From Streptosporangiales bacterium (GTDB taxonomy: Bacteria; Actinomycetota; Actinomycetes; Streptosporangiales; WHST01), in contig WHST01000048.1 in assembly GCA_009379955.1 (NCBI GenBank), positions 1 to 43,884 on the forward strand: DNA of 43,884 bases, read 5' to 3'. The translations under genes were made by a program, and so were the position numbers. Under the pieces are notes generated by a model that was not told the DNA's origin, ran no database searches, and was given only the letters and a program-made list of their open reading frames with translations. Shown in pieces: positions 34,668 to 43,884 of this stretch; positions within the stretch are counted from its first letter, which is position 1; each line of letters starts with the position of its first letter.

Positions 34668-35695
34668 CGCGGCACTCCCCGCACCACCGGCCAGACGTCG
34701 TCGATGAAGCTACTGACCGTGGACGCCAGCGTATCGCCCTCGGCCGCCAGCGGGCGGATCGTGACCTTGGCGACCTCCGGGCTCAGCAGGCTGTGCAACT
34801 GCTCCACCACCGTCGCCGCCGATCCCACCAGCCCGGTGGCACGGACGTCCTCGGCGGAGAGCCCGCTGGCGACCGCGTCGACGTCGCCGGCCTCGGCCGC
34901 TCGGCAGGTGTCCTCCGTCGGCGTGACACCCAACCCCTCGAGATAGCTCCACCTCGGGTACGTGGTGCACAACCGCGCGGCGAACCTGCGGCGCATGACC
35001 TCGAGTGCCCTGTCCTCGTCGTCACCGATGCAGGTCTCCAGGCGGAGGTGGACGGCGACGGATCCCGGCTTCCTGCCGGCGACGCGCTCGCCGTCCCGAA
35101 GAGACTCGATCGCGGTGTCGATGGCGGGACGCCTGGCCAGGTTGGCGAGCAGCACTCCGTCGGCGAGCTTCCCCGACAGGCGCAGCACCTGCGCGCTGTG
35201 CGTGGCGACGAAGACAGGGACGTCGCGCCGCAGTGGTGTGAAGCCCAGGCCGGTCCCCTGGAGCCGGTAGAGCTCCCCCGTGTAGTCGACGGGTGAGCCC
35301 TCGAACATCGCCCTGATCAGCTCGATGGCCTCGCGTAACGCGCGGACCGGACGGTCCTTGCGCACCCCCATCTCCGCGAGGCCGCTCCCGCCCGTCCCGA
35401 GGCCGATCTGCACGCGGCCCTGGCTGAGCTCGTCGAGGGTGGCCATCGCCATCGCGACGACAGCGGGATGCCTGCTGTACGGATCGCTGACGCCCGGCCC
35501 GAGCAGGAGGCGACGACTGTGTCGCGCGGCGAGCGCGAGTCCCATGTAGCACTCGTGCTGGAAGCGGATGTCGGTGTACCACAGCTCCGAGTAGCCGCTG
35601 TCGTCGGCGAGCTCGACCAGCTCGATGAGCTCCTTCGCCGGACCCGTCGACCAGAGCAGCAGGCCGGGTGCCGCCGCCGGCGGCCTATCGTGCAC
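34664..35695 (-). CDS. LLM-class flavin-dependent oxidoreductase (luciferase-like, F420 or FMN)
   Basis: 343 residues. The TIM-barrel bacterial luciferase-like fold shows GYSELWYTDIRFQHECYMGLALAA, LGPGVSDPYSRHPAVVAMAMATLDELSQGRVQIGLGTGG and RDVPVFVATHSAQVLRLSGKLADG, a pattern close to F420-dependent methylenetetrahydromethanopterin reductase homologues. GTG at 35695 was chosen because the family N-terminus begins there (LLLWSTGPAKELIEL); it overlaps the tautomerase gene by 11 bases. In this operon it could be a monooxygenase or reductase; the substrate is unknown. Confidence 0.85.
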   Translation of the reverse strand: MHDRPPAAAPGLLLWSTGPAKELIELVELADDSGYSELWYTDIRFQHECYMGLALAARHSRRLLLGPGVSDPYSRHPAVVAMAMATLDELSQGRVQIGLGTGGSGLAEMGVRKDRPVRALREAIELIRAMFEGSPVDYTGELYRLQGTGLGFTPLRRDVPVFVATHSAQVLRLSGKLADGVLLANLARRPAIDTAIESLRDGERVAGRKPGSVAVHLRLETCIGDDEDRALEVMRRRFAARLCTTYPRWSYLEGLGVTPTEDTCRAAEAGDVDAVASGLSAEDVRATGLVGSAATVVEQLHSLLSPEVAKVTIRPLAAEGDTLASTVSSFIDDVWPVVRGVPR

Positions 35696-36485
35696 GGTCG
35701 GGGAGGACGTCGAACGAGCCCAGCGGATCGCGGTCGTGGAGCAACGGACGGACACGGGCCTTCAGCATGTCGTGCGCCGGGCTGGAGGCGTAGGCCTCGG
35801 CGTGCTCCCGGCTCAGCCAGTGGTTCACCACGAAGAACGACGAACCCGACGGCAGCTGGCGCAACCGGTCGCTGGAGACGAAGCCGCTGCATCGGTTCAT
35901 CTCGGGATGGACGGCCAGCCGCATCAGCTGCAGGTACTCGTCGACCGTGTCCTCGCGAACGTGGTGGGTGCCGATCGTCAGATGGAGCGGCAACCGGTTC
36001 TGGCCGCGGAGACCACCGAGTGGCAGATCGGCGCGCAGGCAACGCATGACCTTGCCGTCGGCGACCGACGTCTCCGCGAGGAACCCGTCCCACGCGTCCT
36101 GCGCGTCCTGACCGGGTGAGCAGGCGCCGAGGACGAGGGCAGCCGGGGTGGCGTCCGAGTCGCAGTTGACCCCTTGCCTGATGCCGAGGAGACCGTTGGA
36201 CGGCAACGCGGGGACCTTCTCCGCTGTGCTGCCCGTCTGCAGCACCATGACCACGTCGCCCGAGTCGACGCCAGGGATCACCTCGGAGTCCTGGCGCGGC
36301 GGACGGTCGGAGTTGAGCAGCGCGCCGCGCCCCCAGTTCTCCCGCGTCCTCTCCTCGAGGAGCACGTGGACGCCGTCCGCGTCGACCTGACACGTACGTG
36401 CCACCGTCTCCGTGATGCCCTGGACGAGCTCACGCTTCTTCTCGATGGGTCGTCCCTCGAAGAACTCGACATGGACGATGGGCAT
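35685..36485 (-). CDS. Two-domain protein: 4-oxalocrotonate tautomerase-like plus ABM-like barrel
   Basis: 266 residues. After removal of Met1 the chain would start with Pro1 (PIVHVEFFEGRPIEKKRELV), the catalytic base of tautomerases, followed by VHVLLEERTRENWGRGALL. From about residue 150 a second domain (LHLTIGTHHVREDTVDEYLQLMRLAVHPE ... SSFFVVNHWLSREHAEAYASSPAH) matches antibiotic-biosynthesis-monooxygenase/dimeric alpha-beta barrels. ATG at 36485 follows AGGAGG. I know of tautomerases as 60-130-residue proteins; this fusion is unusual. It leads the redox operon, 32 bases after a molybdenum hydroxylase remnant. Confidence 0.75.
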   Translation of the reverse strand: MPIVHVEFFEGRPIEKKRELVQGITETVARTCQVDADGVHVLLEERTRENWGRGALLNSDRPPRQDSEVIPGVDSGDVVMVLQTGSTAEKVPALPSNGLLGIRQGVNCDSDATPAALVLGACSPGQDAQDAWDGFLAETSVADGKVMRCLRADLPLGGLRGQNRLPLHLTIGTHHVREDTVDEYLQLMRLAVHPEMNRCSGFVSSDRLRQLPSGSSFFVVNHWLSREHAEAYASSPAHDMLKARVRPLLHDRDPLGSFDVLPDRAR

Positions 36486-36517
36486 GGAATCCTCCTGGTG
36501 CTCGGGAACCTTCGACG

Positions 36518-36679
36518 TCACCGAACGCGCTGCGGCGCGCGGCGCATCGCTTCGAGCACGCGCGCGGGCGTCGCCGGCATCTCGAAGACGCGGGCTCCGA
36601 TCGCGTGCGCGATGCCGTTGGCGACCGCGGCCATGCCGCAGGCCGCGGTGATCTCCGCGGATCCCTTCGCGCCGACCGG
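36518..36679 (-). pseudogene. C-terminal remnant of a xanthine dehydrogenase/molybdenum hydroxylase large subunit
   Basis: Reading leftward from about 36679, the frame encodes PVGAKGSAEI and then AVANGIAHAIGARVFEMPAT, ending in PARVLEAMRR and a TGA at 36518. This is the typical end of a molybdopterin-binding subunit (GxKGxxE...AxxNAIxxAxGxRxxxxPxTPxxVLxAL). The preceding several hundred residues are missing. The fragment is co-directional with and 32 bases upstream of the tautomerase gene, so the intact gene probably belonged to that operon. Confidence 0.75.
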
Positions 36680-37053: not shown

Positions 37054-37935
37054 ATGCCCGAGACCCTGCGGATGGCGGTAGGCAGCTACCCGCACACCGA
37101 GGCGTTGCAGGACGGTCGGGTGCGACTGGCCGGGCTGTCCATCGAGCATGTCGTCCCCGAGCCGGCGCACCGGGCGTTCCGGCCGATGGCCAACGCCCTC
37201 GCGTACGACGTCGCCGAGATGGCCATCGTCACGTACCTGCTCGCGAAGGACCTGGGCCGGCCGCTCGTGCTCCTCCCCATCGTGTTGATGCGGCAGCCCG
37301 AGCTGCCGCTGCTGGTGTGTCCCGTCGACTCCGACCTGCACACCGCGCAGGACCTCGCCGGGCGCACGGTCGGCGTGCGCGCGTACACCCAGACGACGGC
37401 CACCTGGGTACGCGGGATCCTGCAGGACACCGCGGGCCTCGACCCGGACACAGTGCGCTGGCGGACGTTCGACCCCGCCCATCTCGACGAGTTCACCGAT
37501 CCCGCGACGGTCACCAGGATGCCGGCAGGAACCGACCTGCTCGGCAGTCTCCGTACCGGCGAGCTGGACGCGGCGATCGTCGCGTGGGACGCGCGGAACG
37601 CACCGGGGCTCCGGCCCGTGCTCGACGCCCCGATGGCCATGGAGACGCAGTGGATCGCCCGCTCGGGCGTGACTCCGGTGAACCACCTCGTGTGCGTGAA
37701 GGCCGAGCTGTTGCGGGACATACCGTCGCTGGGGAACCGGCTCGTCGGGATCTTCGCCGAGGCCAAGAGCGCAGCCGGCAGCTCGCCCGACTCCGGGCAG
37801 GACGCGGGACCTTCAGGCATCGACGAGATCCGCCCCGCCCTCGACACGATTGCGGAGTACGCGCACCGCCAGGGGATTACGAGGAGGCGGTTCACCGTGG
37901 ACGAGCTCTTCGAACATCAGGACGACAAAGAATAG
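37054..37935 (+). CDS. 4,5-dihydroxyphthalate decarboxylase-like protein (periplasmic-binding-protein fold)
   Basis: 293 residues, no signal peptide or lipobox. It opens LRMAVGSYPHTEALQDGRV and has the substrate-binding-protein fold with DLAGRTVGVRAYTQTTATWVRGIL and LLGSLRTGELDAAIVAWDARN, the layout of 4,5-dihydroxyphthalate decarboxylase and related proteins. In that family a solute-receptor fold acts as a cytoplasmic enzyme, but most members are uncharacterised. A purine-rich GAGAGAGGG precedes the ATG at 37054. A neighbouring aldolase remnant fits a phthalate/protocatechuate theme. Confidence 0.75.
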   Translation: MPETLRMAVGSYPHTEALQDGRVRLAGLSIEHVVPEPAHRAFRPMANALAYDVAEMAIVTYLLAKDLGRPLVLLPIVLMRQPELPLLVCPVDSDLHTAQDLAGRTVGVRAYTQTTATWVRGILQDTAGLDPDTVRWRTFDPAHLDEFTDPATVTRMPAGTDLLGSLRTGELDAAIVAWDARNAPGLRPVLDAPMAMETQWIARSGVTPVNHLVCVKAELLRDIPSLGNRLVGIFAEAKSAAGSSPDSGQDAGPSGIDEIRPALDTIAEYAHRQGITRRRFTVDELFEHQDDKE

Positions 37936-38416: not shown

Positions 38417-39691
38417 TCATGGAGCATGGGGGGCAGTGTCGGCGGCGGGGAGCGGTGGGACGACGGCGGCGGCGACGGCCACGCCGGCGATGACGATGAC
38501 GATGGCGAGTCCGGTGACCGTTCCGGCGTCGCCGGTTGCCTGCCAGGCGAGTACGGCGAGGGCGGGGCCGAGCGCGAAACCTGCGGTACGGGCGAGGCCG
38601 GCGAGCGAACCGATGCTGCCGGCGAGGTTCGGGGGTGCGGCAGACATCAACATTGCACCATTGGGCCCGAGGATCAGACCGGAACCGGCACCGACCAGGA
38701 CCAGTGTCACGAACACCCTCACCAGGTCGGCCGTGTCACCACCGCGCGTGGCGCCGACCACGGTGGCGAACAGGGCGCCGGCACCGGCGACGAGCGTGAG
38801 CGTCCCCGCCAGCTGGATGCGCCAGGGACCCCACCTGTCGGCGAGCATGCCGCCGCCGGGAGCCAGCAACGCCATCGTCGCGGGCGGCACGAGCAGCAGC
38901 ATCCCCGCCACCGCGGCCGAGTGGTGCCACGAGCGCTGGAGCAGGAACGGCAACAGTGCGTTGTACGCCCCGGTCACGGTGGTGCCCGCGAGCAGTACGG
39001 CGAGGGTCGGCGCGACCGCGCGTCCGCGCGCCATCTCGGCCACCCCGCGCAGCCACTGCGCGGGCCTGCCGCCACCACCGCGGATCCGCGGCACGGCGCG
39101 TGCACCGAGCACGGCGGCCAGGAGACACACCGGGAGGTTGACGAGGAACGCAGCGCGCCAGCCGTACGCGGAGACGAGCAGCCCACCGACGCCCGGGCCC
39201 GCCACGCTGCCCAAGGGACCGAGCATCGCGACCAGGCCCTGCGCCCTGCCGCGGTGCTCGGGCCGGACCACGGCCGCGACGACCGCGAAGCTCAACGCGC
39301 CCACCGTCGCTCCGAACAACCCCTGCACGGCGCGGGCGGCGAGCACGAGGCCCAGCGAGCCCGCCACCGCGACCAGAGCGCTACTGCCACCGAAGCCGGC
39401 GACCGCGACGAGGAACGCCCGGCGCCGGCCCGTCCTGTCGACCCAGCCACCGGCCGGCAGCATGAACGCGATCACCGGCACCAGGTACGCCAGCACGGCG
39501 AGCTGAGCCAGACCCGGCCCGACACCGAGGTCGGTGCTGAGGTCCGGCAACGCGACGGCGACGACAGTCATGTCCAGGCCGGTCATGAACACCATCACCG
39601 CGACCGCGACGACGGCCGACCACCGTGTACGGTCCGGCACGGGCGGCCGACCACCGACGTCGCGTTCCCTCCCCTTCTCCACCGAGGTCAT
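38417..39691 (-). CDS. MFS drug/metabolite exporter (drug:H+ antiporter type)
   Basis: 424 residues, twelve or more membrane segments. The N-terminal motif FMTGLDMTVVAVALPDLSTDLG (LDxTVVNVALP-type) and the motif-A loop GGWVDRTGRRRAFL are typical of DHA-family exporters. The motif-C-like segment is GPLGSVAGPGVGGLL. The ATG at 39691 overlaps the DAHP synthase stop (ATGA). As third gene behind the PhzE-like and DAHP synthase genes it probably exports the product made with their help. Confidence 0.88.
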   Translation of the reverse strand: MTSVEKGRERDVGGRPPVPDRTRWSAVVAVAVMVFMTGLDMTVVAVALPDLSTDLGVGPGLAQLAVLAYLVPVIAFMLPAGGWVDRTGRRRAFLVAVAGFGGSSALVAVAGSLGLVLAARAVQGLFGATVGALSFAVVAAVVRPEHRGRAQGLVAMLGPLGSVAGPGVGGLLVSAYGWRAAFLVNLPVCLLAAVLGARAVPRIRGGGGRPAQWLRGVAEMARGRAVAPTLAVLLAGTTVTGAYNALLPFLLQRSWHHSAAVAGMLLLVPPATMALLAPGGGMLADRWGPWRIQLAGTLTLVAGAGALFATVVGATRGGDTADLVRVFVTLVLVGAGSGLILGPNGAMLMSAAPPNLAGSIGSLAGLARTAGFALGPALAVLAWQATGDAGTVTGLAIVIVIAGVAVAAAVVPPLPAADTAPHAP

Positions 39692-40914
39692 GTCCACGCC
39701 TCGACCAGCTCGTGCGCCTGCTCAGGGTTCAACCGCGGGTCGCACAACGTCGTGTACCGGCGCTGCACCATCTCCTCACCGCTGACCTTCCCGCCGACGC
39801 ACTCCGTGACATCGTCGGCTGCCACCTCGAGGTGCAGGCCGGCCGGGTGCACACCGGACCGCTCGAGGATCGCCCGGCATGCCAGCACCTCGTCGACCAG
39901 GTCCGACAGGTGCCGGGTCTTCACACCGTCCCCGGTGCGCACGGTGTTCCCGTGCATCGGGTCGCTCAGCCACACCGCCGGGTGGCCGGCGCGGCGTACC
40001 GCCGTCACGAGCGGGGGCAACGTCTCCGCGATGTGGGCGACACCCATCCGCGCGATCAGGACGAGTCGGCCGGGCACCCGGTCCGGGTCGAGCAGCTCGC
40101 ACAGGCGGAGCAGGTCGGTCACCTGCGTGCTCGGACCGAGCTTGCAGCCCACCGGGTTGTCCATCGCGGACAGCAGTCGCACGTGGGCCGAGTTCGGCTG
40201 TCTGGTGCGCTCCCCGATCCAGGGGAGGTGGGTCGAGCCGAGGAAGCTGCCGCCACCGGGTCCGGTACGGATCGCGCTTCCCTCGTAGTCGATGACGAGC
40301 GCCTCGTGGCTCGCCCACGGACCGCTGCCGATCCCGGCGGTCGCCACAGCCGTGCCGGCGGTACGCCGCAGCCGGTCCTCGCGCAGCATCCGCAGCACGC
40401 GTGCACTCGCCTGGTACCCGAGCAGCATGCGGCTGGGATCGTGCTCGCGCGCGGCACGGGTGGGCACATCGGAGTTCACCAGGTGACCGCGGAACACCGG
40501 CAACTCGCGTCCGTCGTGCCACTCCACGGGTTGTGACCGCGGCTTCGCGAACTGACCGCCGATCCGCCCGATCCGGACGACCGGAGCCTCCGCGCCCGCG
40601 GCGAGCCGGTCAGCCAGACCGTTCAGGACGGCGAGCTTCGCAGCGGTGTGGTCGGACATGCATTCCGCGAGGCTCTCCGCGCAGTCGCCGGCCTGCAGCA
40701 GGAGTGCCCGGCCGGCCGCGACCGTCGCGAGGTTCCGCCGCAGCGTGTCCAGCTCCGCCACGGTCACCAGGGATGGCGCCGCCGCGAGCGCCTCCCTGGT
40801 ACGCAGGTACTCGGCGTGATAGCGCCAGTGCGGTTGCTGTTCCGCCGGCAGTCCTTCCCACGCGGCCGGTCCGGCGACCGACCGCGGCAGAGTCCGTTCC
40901 TGCATCACAGACAT
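39688..40914 (-). CDS. Class II 3-deoxy-7-phosphoheptulonate (DAHP) synthase, PhzC-like
   Basis: 408 residues. Class II (AroA-II) motifs: LLQAGDCAESLAECMSDH, VVRIGRIGGQFAKPRS, DPSRMLLGYQASA, FLGSTHLPWIGERTRQ, VGCKLGPS and WLSDPMHGNTVRTGDGVKTR. It condenses phosphoenolpyruvate and erythrose-4-phosphate, the first shikimate-pathway step. It is shorter than the housekeeping mycobacterial form (about 460), matching PhzC-type copies that feed chorismate to a secondary pathway. ATG at 40914 follows AAGGAG. Confidence 0.94.
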   Translation of the reverse strand: MSVMQERTLPRSVAGPAAWEGLPAEQQPHWRYHAEYLRTREALAAAPSLVTVAELDTLRRNLATVAAGRALLLQAGDCAESLAECMSDHTAAKLAVLNGLADRLAAGAEAPVVRIGRIGGQFAKPRSQPVEWHDGRELPVFRGHLVNSDVPTRAAREHDPSRMLLGYQASARVLRMLREDRLRRTAGTAVATAGIGSGPWASHEALVIDYEGSAIRTGPGGGSFLGSTHLPWIGERTRQPNSAHVRLLSAMDNPVGCKLGPSTQVTDLLRLCELLDPDRVPGRLVLIARMGVAHIAETLPPLVTAVRRAGHPAVWLSDPMHGNTVRTGDGVKTRHLSDLVDEVLACRAILERSGVHPAGLHLEVAADDVTECVGGKVSGEEMVQRRYTTLCDPRLNPEQAHELVEAWT

Positions 40915-40971
40915 GCGGGCACTCCTTCTGCTCTGACTTTGGCGACCGTTGTTGCCGTGGATTCGTACGCG

Positions 40972-42951
40972 TCATCCCGATCGCTGCAGCGGCAGGTGCC
41001 CGCGCCGACCGGTGAGCGTGGACGCGAGCAGCTCCGCAAGGATCGCCACACCGTGCTGGGTGAGCAGCGACTCCGGATGGAACTGCGTCGACGCGAAACC
41101 CGGACCCCGCAGCGCGTGCACCTCTCTCGTGCGCGGATCTCGGCACACGCGGATCGGGCCGGGGATGTCCGGCCGATGAAGCACGTCGCTCTCCGACAAG
41201 GCCACGTACGTGTTGTAGAAGCCCACCCGCTCACGCCGGCCGAACAGCTCGATGTCGAGCTGCACGCCCTGGTTCGGCACCGGCTTGCGTACCAGATCCA
41301 GTCCCAGAGCGGACGCGAGCACCTGGTGGGAGAGACACACACAGAGCAACGGGATGTCCTGGCGCTTGGCGCACCCGATCACCCGCCACAGCGCATCGAC
41401 GCGGCTGTCGTCGCGGTCCCGCGGATCTCCTGGTCCAGGGCCGGCGACCACGAGGTCGTACGACTCCATGACACCGTCGACGAGTGCCTCGCCGCATGGC
41501 CGGATCGTCACGGCCGTCCCCAGTGAGCGCAGCTGCTGCCCGAGCATCGCGGTGAAGGTGTCCTCTGCGTCGAGCACGAGCACCCGCCGCCCGGCGAGGT
41601 ACGGATCCGGCCGATCTCGTTCGTCCTCGGGATCGAACCAGTACCGGGAGAGCGTCGCGTTGCGTCGCCGCAGCGCGGCGTCGACCCGTTCGTCGCCGGG
41701 CAACCCGCGTGCACTCGACCAGTTGGCCCCGGCAGGTCGTGTGGTCGCGATGGTCCCGCCCGCGGTGACGCCGGCCGCCGCGAGCAGTCCGGCGACCTTC
41801 GCCTCGGTCTCGGCCACCTCGGCATCGGGGTCGGAGTCGCGCACCAGCGTGGCACCGACGCCGACCTCGATCCCACCGGTCTGGTCGATGTCCGCGGTCC
41901 TGATGAGGATCGCGGAATCCATGAGGCGCCGGCCGGACCCGTCCCGTCCGACGAGGGCGATAACGCCGCTGTAGTACCCACGCCCGACACGTTCGCGACG
42001 CGCGATCACTCGACAGGCGTTCTCCACGGGACTGCCCGTCACCGTCGGCGCCAGCAGGGTGCGGCGCAGCACCTCGCGGACATCGAGACTGCTGCGCCCG
42101 CGTAGCAGGTACTCCGTGTGCGCGAGCCGCGCCATCTCCTTGAGGTACGGACCGAGCACCTGCCCACCCACCTCGCAGATGCCCGCCATCATCTTCAGCT
42201 CCTCGTCGACGACCATGACGAGCTCGCCGGCCTCCTTGCGGTCGGCGAGGAACGCGAGCGTTCCCGTCAGGTCCGGGCCCGTCACCGGGTAGCGGTACGT
42301 CCCGCTTATCGGGTTCATCACGACCTCGCCGGCCCGCACGCTGACCTGACGCTCCGGTGTGGCGCCGACGAAGGTCCGGGTTCCGGTGTGCACCAGGAAC
42401 GTCCAGTACGCCCCCACCTCGCCGGCCAGCAACTCGCGGAACAGGGCGAGCGCGGCGCGGTGCGAGTCGCCGGGCATCCGGCCACGGAACGTCCGCTTCA
42501 CCACGAAGTTCGATCCCGCCCCGGTGCCGATCTCTTCGGCGAGCACCGCGCGAACCAGCCGGGTGTACGACTCGTCGTCACCCTCGAAGCCCGCGTCGGC
42601 GAGCTCGACCGGCCCTACGGGCAGCCACTCGAGGATGTCGTCCAGCGGCACGGTGGACTGCCGCGACACCGTCATCGCCAGGATCGGTTCCTGGTCGTCG
42701 CGACAGACGTAGCCGCGTTCGACCACCTGACGGTACGGAACGAGGGCGAGCACCTCGTGCCGTGGGACCGTGTCGCTGCTGTCGCCGCCGGTGACGGCGT
42801 CGTCCGGCACCGGCAGATCCGCCAGCCGGTGCACCGCCGAGACGTCGCCGACGAGCAGCTCCACCCTGGCCGGATCCGCCGACTCCGGCCGGTACAGCAG
42901 CGCGAACGGCGGAGGCGTGGGCCCTACCAGCCGAGCGAGCTCGTCTGCCAT
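40972..42951 (-). CDS. 2-amino-2-deoxyisochorismate (ADIC) synthase, PhzE-like fusion
   Basis: 659 residues. The N-terminal chorismate-utilising domain (to about 430) has FVGATPERQVSVRAGEVVMNPISGTYRYP, DEELKMMAGICEVGGQV and SGVIALVGRDGSGRRLMDSAILIRT. The C-terminal class I glutamine amidotransferase has VVAGPGPGDPRD, nucleophile Cys in VCLSHQVLASALG, and FHPES. The synthase-amidotransferase order and the CLSHQ motif are as in PhzE, which makes ADIC from chorismate and glutamine; a fused anthranilate synthase is the alternative. The ATG at 42951 (MADELARL) is preferred to 42984. It leads the operon with DAHP synthase and an exporter. Confidence 0.88.
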   Translation of the reverse strand: MADELARLVGPTPPPFALLYRPESADPARVELLVGDVSAVHRLADLPVPDDAVTGGDSSDTVPRHEVLALVPYRQVVERGYVCRDDQEPILAMTVSRQSTVPLDDILEWLPVGPVELADAGFEGDDESYTRLVRAVLAEEIGTGAGSNFVVKRTFRGRMPGDSHRAALALFRELLAGEVGAYWTFLVHTGTRTFVGATPERQVSVRAGEVVMNPISGTYRYPVTGPDLTGTLAFLADRKEAGELVMVVDEELKMMAGICEVGGQVLGPYLKEMARLAHTEYLLRGRSSLDVREVLRRTLLAPTVTGSPVENACRVIARRERVGRGYYSGVIALVGRDGSGRRLMDSAILIRTADIDQTGGIEVGVGATLVRDSDPDAEVAETEAKVAGLLAAAGVTAGGTIATTRPAGANWSSARGLPGDERVDAALRRRNATLSRYWFDPEDERDRPDPYLAGRRVLVLDAEDTFTAMLGQQLRSLGTAVTIRPCGEALVDGVMESYDLVVAGPGPGDPRDRDDSRVDALWRVIGCAKRQDIPLLCVCLSHQVLASALGLDLVRKPVPNQGVQLDIELFGRRERVGFYNTYVALSESDVLHRPDIPGPIRVCRDPRTREVHALRGPGFASTQFHPESLLTQHGVAILAELLASTLTGRRGHLPLQRSG

Positions 42952-43201
42952 GTCGGTCTCAGCGCGTCGATCCGTGTGCTGCACGGCGCCTCCGTCCGGG
43001 TCGGACCTGACCAGCGTCTGGGCTGGAACGGCCTGGTGACTCCGGAATCAGCATCGGCGCCTGGCAGGCGGCACGGCATCACGTCTTCGCGCGATCAATC
43101 CGGCTCTTCACAGTTGAAGGGTGTACGGCGGGTCGGCGCGTCGGTGGCAGGGTCGGGGTCGAGGTCTTCCGGTGAGGAGGGTTCCTACTCCGCTTCCCGC
43201 G

Positions 43202-43678
43202 TCACAAGGGGCGCAGGTGCTCGATCGTGACGCGGTGCCGCTCGGTCAACCGCTGGGCGATCAACGAGCGGTGGCAGGCCTCCGGGTCGCGCTCGACACA
43301 GAGCAGCGCTGCGGTCCCACTACTCGACAGCGCCGAGACGATCGGCGTGAGGTCGGCGCGGTCGAGGATCTCGGTGGTGTAGCGGCGGGTGTACTCGGCG
43401 GCGAGCTCGCGGCGCGAGCGCTTGCCGACCCCGCGGCGGTCATCCTCGGCGTACTGGAGCTGACGTAGCTCGGTGGTCGGGGCGAGGTCAGGGTGGTGCT
43501 CGTAGGCGATGCGGGCATGGGCGAGGGCCGCCTGCAGCCGGCGCGAGTTCGCCCAGGCGTACTCAGGTCCGCGGACGCCGCGGCGCTGGCGTACGTCGAG
43601 CAGCAGGCGAACGTTCGCCTGCTGCAGTCGTTGCAGGAAGGACTCGACGTCGAAGCCATAGACGCCGACTGTCGCCAT
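43202..43678 (-). CDS. DUF488 family protein
   Basis: 158 residues, cytoplasmic. It opens MATVGVYGFDVESFLQRLQQ and has LLLDVRQRRGVRGPEYAWAN and the C-terminal CVERDPEACHRSLIAQRL, the conserved cysteine/arginine/histidine motif of DUF488. Biochemical function is unknown; the clustered Cys and His suggest a catalytic or metal site. ATG at 43678 fits the family; an ATG nine bases upstream (43687) is possible. It is separated from the PhzE-like gene by about 250 bases and probably independent. Confidence 0.85.
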   Translation of the reverse strand: MATVGVYGFDVESFLQRLQQANVRLLLDVRQRRGVRGPEYAWANSRRLQAALAHARIAYEHHPDLAPTTELRQLQYAEDDRRGVGKRSRRELAAEYTRRYTTEILDRADLTPIVSALSSSGTAALLCVERDPEACHRSLIAQRLTERHRVTIEHLRPL

Positions 43679-43835
43679 CCTGAGCATCGGAAATCACCCG
43701 CCTGCCTCCTACTCGTGCCGGTCCATGGTGGCCCCGGGCAATGACGCTAGGAGCGTGGGTCCGTATTGGCGAATCCGCCGCGCCGCGGCGCTGATGGGGC
43801 TGCTGGGCGGTTAGCGTGGCGGGCCGTGTGCCGGC

Positions 43836-43884
43836 ATGAGTGAGGTGGTCGTGCTCGTCGTTGATGCTCAGCGATCAGCGATCA
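43836..43884 (+). CDS. Possible start of a gene running off the right edge
   Basis: ATG at 43836 opens a frame, MSEVVVLVVDAQRSAI, that continues to the window end. The alternating hydrophobic start looks like a first beta strand, but only 16 codons are visible and the ribosome site is weak. The last bases include a direct repeat of AGCGATC. Confidence 0.2.
   Translation, partial: MSEVVVLVVDAQRSAI

Follow-up and report, generated by a model that had tools for sequence, protein, structure and literature searches.

The operon at the end of contig C48

The window is the whole stretch of DNA that was analysed, 43,884 nucleotides long, and makes up all of contig C48, one of the 225 contigs in which a genome of 6.61 Mb is assembled. 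Close to one end, a compact operon on the minus strand (38417-42951) encodes a PhzE-like enzyme of the ADIC-synthase type, a short DAHP synthase and an MFS exporter. The first-pass annotation had proposed such a three-gene operon, and it is borne out, with all three genes intact at these positions. The phzE-like gene (40972-42951, minus strand) can be read from an ATG at 42951 or from an upstream GTG at 42984, and the ATG is the start that fits the relatives of the gene. It is followed after a gap of 57 bp by the gene for a phzC-type class II DAHP synthase of the short form, type IIB (39688-40914, minus strand; 426 bits to the DAHP synthase II profile). The last gene (38417-39697, minus strand; 177 bits to MFS_1) encodes the DHA2/EmrB-like MFS exporter, and a possible ATG for it at 39691 overlaps the stop codon of the DAHP synthase gene, as ATGA.

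Upstream of phzE, domain search identified a DUF488 gene (43202-43687, minus strand), which is probably not part of the pathway. Upstream of phzE the contig runs on for 0.9 kb and breaks off within a multicopy element; the end of this mobile-element-like repeat (43747-43884) was recognised by repeat comparison. Contig C48 carries no homologues of phzA/B, phzD, phzF or phzG. The earlier statement that no phzD is adjacent thus holds for this contig, but another contig of the genome encodes a true orthologue of PhzD.

Genes downstream of the operon were considered as further pathway members. At 35685-36521 on the minus strand lies a gene for a fusion of a 4-oxalocrotonate-type tautomerase with an ABM domain; genes for an LLM-class oxidoreductase, for a ferredoxin-reductase-like protein and for FdxA come next in the same run. 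The tautomerase-ABM, LLM and reductase genes were rejected as pathway members, since they were not found in the related loci examined and a plus-strand gene lies between them and the operon. The plus strand encodes at 37054-37935 a protein of 293 residues that matched nothing in Pfam or NCBIfam and may bind a substrate as part of a transporter-like system. Ordinary genes occupy 1729-30430, including those for tRNA-Gly, the urease alpha subunit, a branched-chain amino acid transporter, a purine permease, and Fur followed by a catalase-peroxidase-like gene.

Identity of the PhzE-like enzyme and the DAHP synthase

The PhzE-like chain has an N-terminal Chorismate_bind domain (PF00425, 131 bits) and a C-terminal class I GATase domain (PF00117, 88 bits), and contains the GATase motifs VCLSHQ and QFHPES. 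Its best match in the PDB is the PhzE of Burkholderia lata (3r74), with 620 bits over the length of the protein, whereas chains of TrpE, PabB and isochorismate synthase reach at most 86 bits. It is 52-60% identical to PhzE homologues in other genomes of the order. In the PhzE tree the window copy falls outside the phenazine group and sits with the copies from two related genomes, G036 and G125, with a modest support of 83 (tree supports throughout are SH-aLRT values from short searches). The earlier proposal that an ADIC-synthase-type enzyme here serves specialised, non-phenazine metabolism is supported; whether such an enzyme releases ADIC or anthranilate is something its sequence does not reveal (PMC5958127).

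Among PDB entries, the DAHP synthase is best matched by P. aeruginosa PhzC (6bmc), at 344 bits and with almost its whole length aligned. Type IIB enzymes have been defined previously, and the short class is insensitive to aromatic amino acids (PMC6435475). The window enzyme fits this definition: it keeps the N-terminal extension and lacks helices alpha2a and alpha2b, it is about 39 residues shorter than the long forms at that site, and its residues 178-200 span residues 174-235 of 5uxm, while its alignment with 6bmc is unbroken. Its active-site motifs are present. In the DAHP synthase tree it groups only with copies from G036, G018 and G125 (support 92), and a branch with support 98 separates the remaining 51 rows. 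The MFS gene is not conserved across related clusters, save for a 42% partial match in Micromonospora.

Neither enzyme is the genome's copy for primary metabolism. The genome encodes four chorismate-binding enzymes, and in NCBIfam comparison the other three pass the cut-offs of their own models: anthranilate synthase component I (TrpE) on contig C1 (794 bits, cut-off 693), aminodeoxychorismate synthase component I (PabB) on C97 (386 bits, cut-off 328), and a member of the isochorismate synthase subfamily on C19 (293 bits, cut-off 225). A long class II DAHP synthase is encoded on C76 (664 bits). The first-pass annotation had named the finding that would have undone its proposal, namely that the window gene was the sole anthranilate synthase and served tryptophan synthesis. 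This does not apply, because TrpE, PabB, isochorismate synthase and a long DAHP synthase are all separate genes, and a tryptophan role for the window PhzE is discarded given the canonical TrpE on C1.

A probable partner cluster on contig C46

A genome-wide check for PhzD, which had been suggested earlier, returned one true orthologue, on contig C46. It is 54% identical to P. aeruginosa PhzD, and its best PDB matches are PhzD chains (229 bits), with isochorismatases at 201 bits or less. The gene belongs to a run on the minus strand (C46:31370-39865) that encodes, in order, an FAD monooxygenase, an Amidohydro_2 protein, PhzD, an EntA-like SDR, a second FAD monooxygenase, an AMP ligase, a GriH-type 3,4-AHBA synthase and a GriI-type aldolase; upstream of the run, the opposite strand encodes a LuxR-type regulator. 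Neither phzE nor a DAHP synthase gene was found in this cluster. In the PhzD tree the C46 copy groups with the clusters of G036, G018 and G125 (support 92), again outside the phenazine group.

The SDR is of the DHHA-dehydrogenase type and scores high enough to clear the cut-off set in the models for 2,3-dihydro-2,3-dihydroxybenzoate dehydrogenase. The AMP ligase matches NatL2 (6siw) with 588 bits and AjiA1 with 572 bits, and the alignment shows that the cysteine and histidine zinc ligands of NatL2 and the lysine of its C-terminal extension are conserved. Both components of closoxazole-type 3,4-AHBA synthesis, the aldolase and the AHBA synthase, are present on C46; they score 402 bits to BagB/FevI and 569 bits to BagC/FevH, both below those models' own cut-offs, and lie above the thresholds of the broader models PRK07226 and PRK02290.1-3.

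The amidohydrolase has 272 residues and belongs to Amidohydro_2; no match was found to NatAM, a cyclising amidohydrolase of two domains and nearly 500 residues. Its predicted model (pLDDT 84) fits the Amidohydro_2 fold, and the nearest structures are aryl-acid decarboxylases and related TIM barrels; based on this model, a decarboxylase role is possible. The amidohydrolases of closoxazole biosynthesis are also reported to have low similarity to NatAM (PMC12118335), and the C46 protein agrees with them in this respect.

The presence of PhzC-, PhzD- and PhzE-type genes in one genome might suggest a phenazine pathway dispersed over its contigs, yet this is highly improbable. No phenazine core operon, with phzA/B, phzF and phzG alongside phzC/D/E, lies in the window or on C46, and neither region has a match to PhzA/B or PhzG. 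The only PF02567 gene in the whole genome, on contig C3, is isolated and 34% identical to PhzF, and both PhzE and PhzD fall outside the phenazine groups in their trees.

Relatives with both halves in one cluster

The C46 amidohydrolase was searched for in 347 genomes of the order, three of them from the window's genus, and nine were positive, this genome included. A phzE gene is present in seven of these nine and in 59 of the 338 others (Fisher p 1.8e-4, to be taken as a guide and not as an exact probability, as the genomes are related). The distance between the phzE and amidohydrolase genes in the relatives is about 3.5 to 20 kb. In G036, a single contiguous cluster holds the DAHP synthase, a putative aspartokinase, GriI, GriH, the amidohydrolase, the ligase, an FMO, the SDR, PhzD, PhzE, a second FMO and LuxR. 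In G018 and G125 the set is almost the same but less tightly arranged, and most of it was found, within the stretches read, in G264, G288, G019, Streptomyces carminius and Micromonospora sp. C95. One further genome, G191, has the 3,4-AHBA genes, the ligase and the amidohydrolase and is missing both phzD and phzE, which is expected if these two genes go together. Among 80 PhzE loci that were fetched with their flanks, 75 have a PhzD homologue in the stretch or in the same cluster, usually directly upstream of phzE. At two loci of G125 (L169 and L170, on its contig C179), paralogues of the amidohydrolase and of the AMP ligase, two of each, lie near one phzE.

These comparisons bear on whether the window operon could be a small locus of its own, with its PhzE producing ADIC or anthranilate either for export or for genes that have no tie to C46, for example towards a compound of the benzoxazolinate type. 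Pathways are known to branch at ADIC (PMC10098953), no ADIC-using gene was found on contig C48, and four loci (L064, L109, L129 and L132) have phzE with no phzD within 10 kb. Against this, the genome's only PhzD orthologue is in a C46 cluster that lacks phzE, and the DAHP synthase and PhzE of the window both group in trees with clusters that combine the two halves. A locus working independently of C46 is for these reasons unlikely. In L064 and L109 a phzC-type gene adjoins phzE. L132 is a 6 kb contig labelled Candidatus Melainabacteria that holds phzE and a phzC-type gene with mostly actinobacterial kin, and it may be misbinned.

Independence could also lie on the other side, with the PhzD and SDR of C46 taking isochorismate from the C19 enzyme to 2,3-dihydroxybenzoate and the window PhzE serving something else. 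Enzymes of the PhzD/EntB and EntA types can act on isochorismate, for which this genome encodes a synthase (C19); EntA and EntB can replace CbxG and CbxH in vivo (PMC5481532); and the SDR scores above the 2,3-dihydro-2,3-dihydroxybenzoate dehydrogenase cut-off. However, relatives with the same cluster keep phzE beside it, and the C46 PhzD is nearer to PhzD chains than to isochorismatases, which makes this reading quite improbable.

The first-pass annotation had described the operon as a small or relocated locus. Relocation stands up in part, but a minimal stand-alone locus does not, as PhzD, the SDR, the AMP ligase and the amidohydrolase are on C46 and both sets occur in one cluster in the relatives.

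Position of the two contigs

Both contigs end in repeated DNA. The last 138-140 bp of C48 recur on eight other contigs of the genome with 99-100% identity, and the last 139-141 bp of C46 (L151, 14900-15040) recur at seven other places. The two elements differ from each other, and therefore one copy of one element cannot bridge C46 and C48: either two elements lie between the halves, or the operon has moved. Copy number and the contig breaks suggest that these repeats are insertion sequences; no transposase was identified. The ends of C46 and C48 share no overlapping sequence, and no join by synteny was found in two genus mates, where clear orthologues of the DUF488 gene and of the RidA-type neighbour are missing. 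Sequence composition does not separate the C46 and C48 regions and is compatible with a single genome; the estimated contamination of the assembly is 3.8%.

There are precedents for both a split supply and action in trans. Genes of the caboxamycin cluster are replaced by paralogues elsewhere in the genome (PMC5481532), and benzoxazolinate clusters borrow ADIC from the distant phzE of a phenazine operon (PMC10098953).

Proposed pathway

Taken together, the window operon is likely to be the ADIC supply arm and exporter of a predicted two-part benzoxazole pathway, the other half of which is on C46. This reading builds on what can be taken from the sequences, namely orthology, gene content, co-clustering in the relatives and single, complementary gene copies in this genome. 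We infer the enzyme activities, the benzoxazole product, the mixed use of 3-hydroxyanthranilate (3-HAA) and 3-amino-4-hydroxybenzoate (3,4-AHBA), the export role and the joint expression of the two loci.

In the proposed pathway, the short DAHP synthase, which belongs to the class of the feedback-insensitive kind, would raise chorismate, and the PhzE-type enzyme would convert chorismate and glutamine to ADIC. The PhzD of C46 would then turn ADIC into DHHA, and the EntA-like SDR would take DHHA to 3-HAA. In the limazepine pathway, Lim6 gives ADIC and Lim5 gives DHHA in vitro (PMC5958127). The GriI/GriH-type enzymes would supply 3,4-AHBA, and the NatL2-type AMP ligase would join the two aryl acids as an ester. 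The small amidohydrolase may close the benzoxazole ring, which is the weakest step of the proposal. Tailoring would fall to the two FAD monooxygenases, and the MFS protein would export the product.

Comparison with known systems

The closest likeness for the supply arm is to the 3-HAA modules of caboxamycin and nataxazole (cbxF-I and natAL/DB/IS/AN), which have the same four activities: a class II DAHP synthase, a PhzE-like enzyme, an isochorismatase and an EntA-like dehydrogenase (PMC5481532). Here, in contrast, the module is spread over two contigs, and the partner cluster is predicted to make 3,4-AHBA as well. The closoxazole clusters (clx and pfx) resemble C46 in their 3,4-AHBA enzymes, in the use of an AMP ligase and in an amidohydrolase that is far from NatAM (PMC12118335). 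Their units, however, are all based on 3,4-AHBA, their AMP ligases number two, and phzE, phzD and a DAHP synthase are undescribed there. Limazepine biosynthesis (Lim3-Lim6) uses the same types of chorismate and DHHA enzymes (PMC5958127), although its 3-HAA is joined by an NRPS, whereas a NatL2-type ligase is present here. The phenazine operon phzA-G is matched by the PhzC and PhzE homologues and, on another contig, PhzD, yet phzA/B, phzF and phzG do not accompany them and the trees place them outside the phenazine group.

In the open-access literature, a scope outside which most subscription journals fall, no description was found of a double supply, with routes to both 3-HAA and 3,4-AHBA, beside a NatL2-type ligase. 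More tentatively, and with somewhat less than even confidence, we suggest that some actinobacterial clusters form a family in which a NatL2-type ligase and a non-NatAM amidohydrolase combine one 3-HAA with one 3,4-AHBA into a mixed benzoxazole, and that in this genome mobile elements have split off the ADIC supply operon.

A locus resembling a lone piece of a phenazine operon can supply the half that a cluster lacks, and prediction contig by contig would overlook such a cluster. The comparison also points to a small cluster family with routes to two aminohydroxybenzoates next to a ligase of the NatL2 type. A mixed benzoxazole, should that be the product, would bring a further scaffold into a class with antibacterial and antitumour members.
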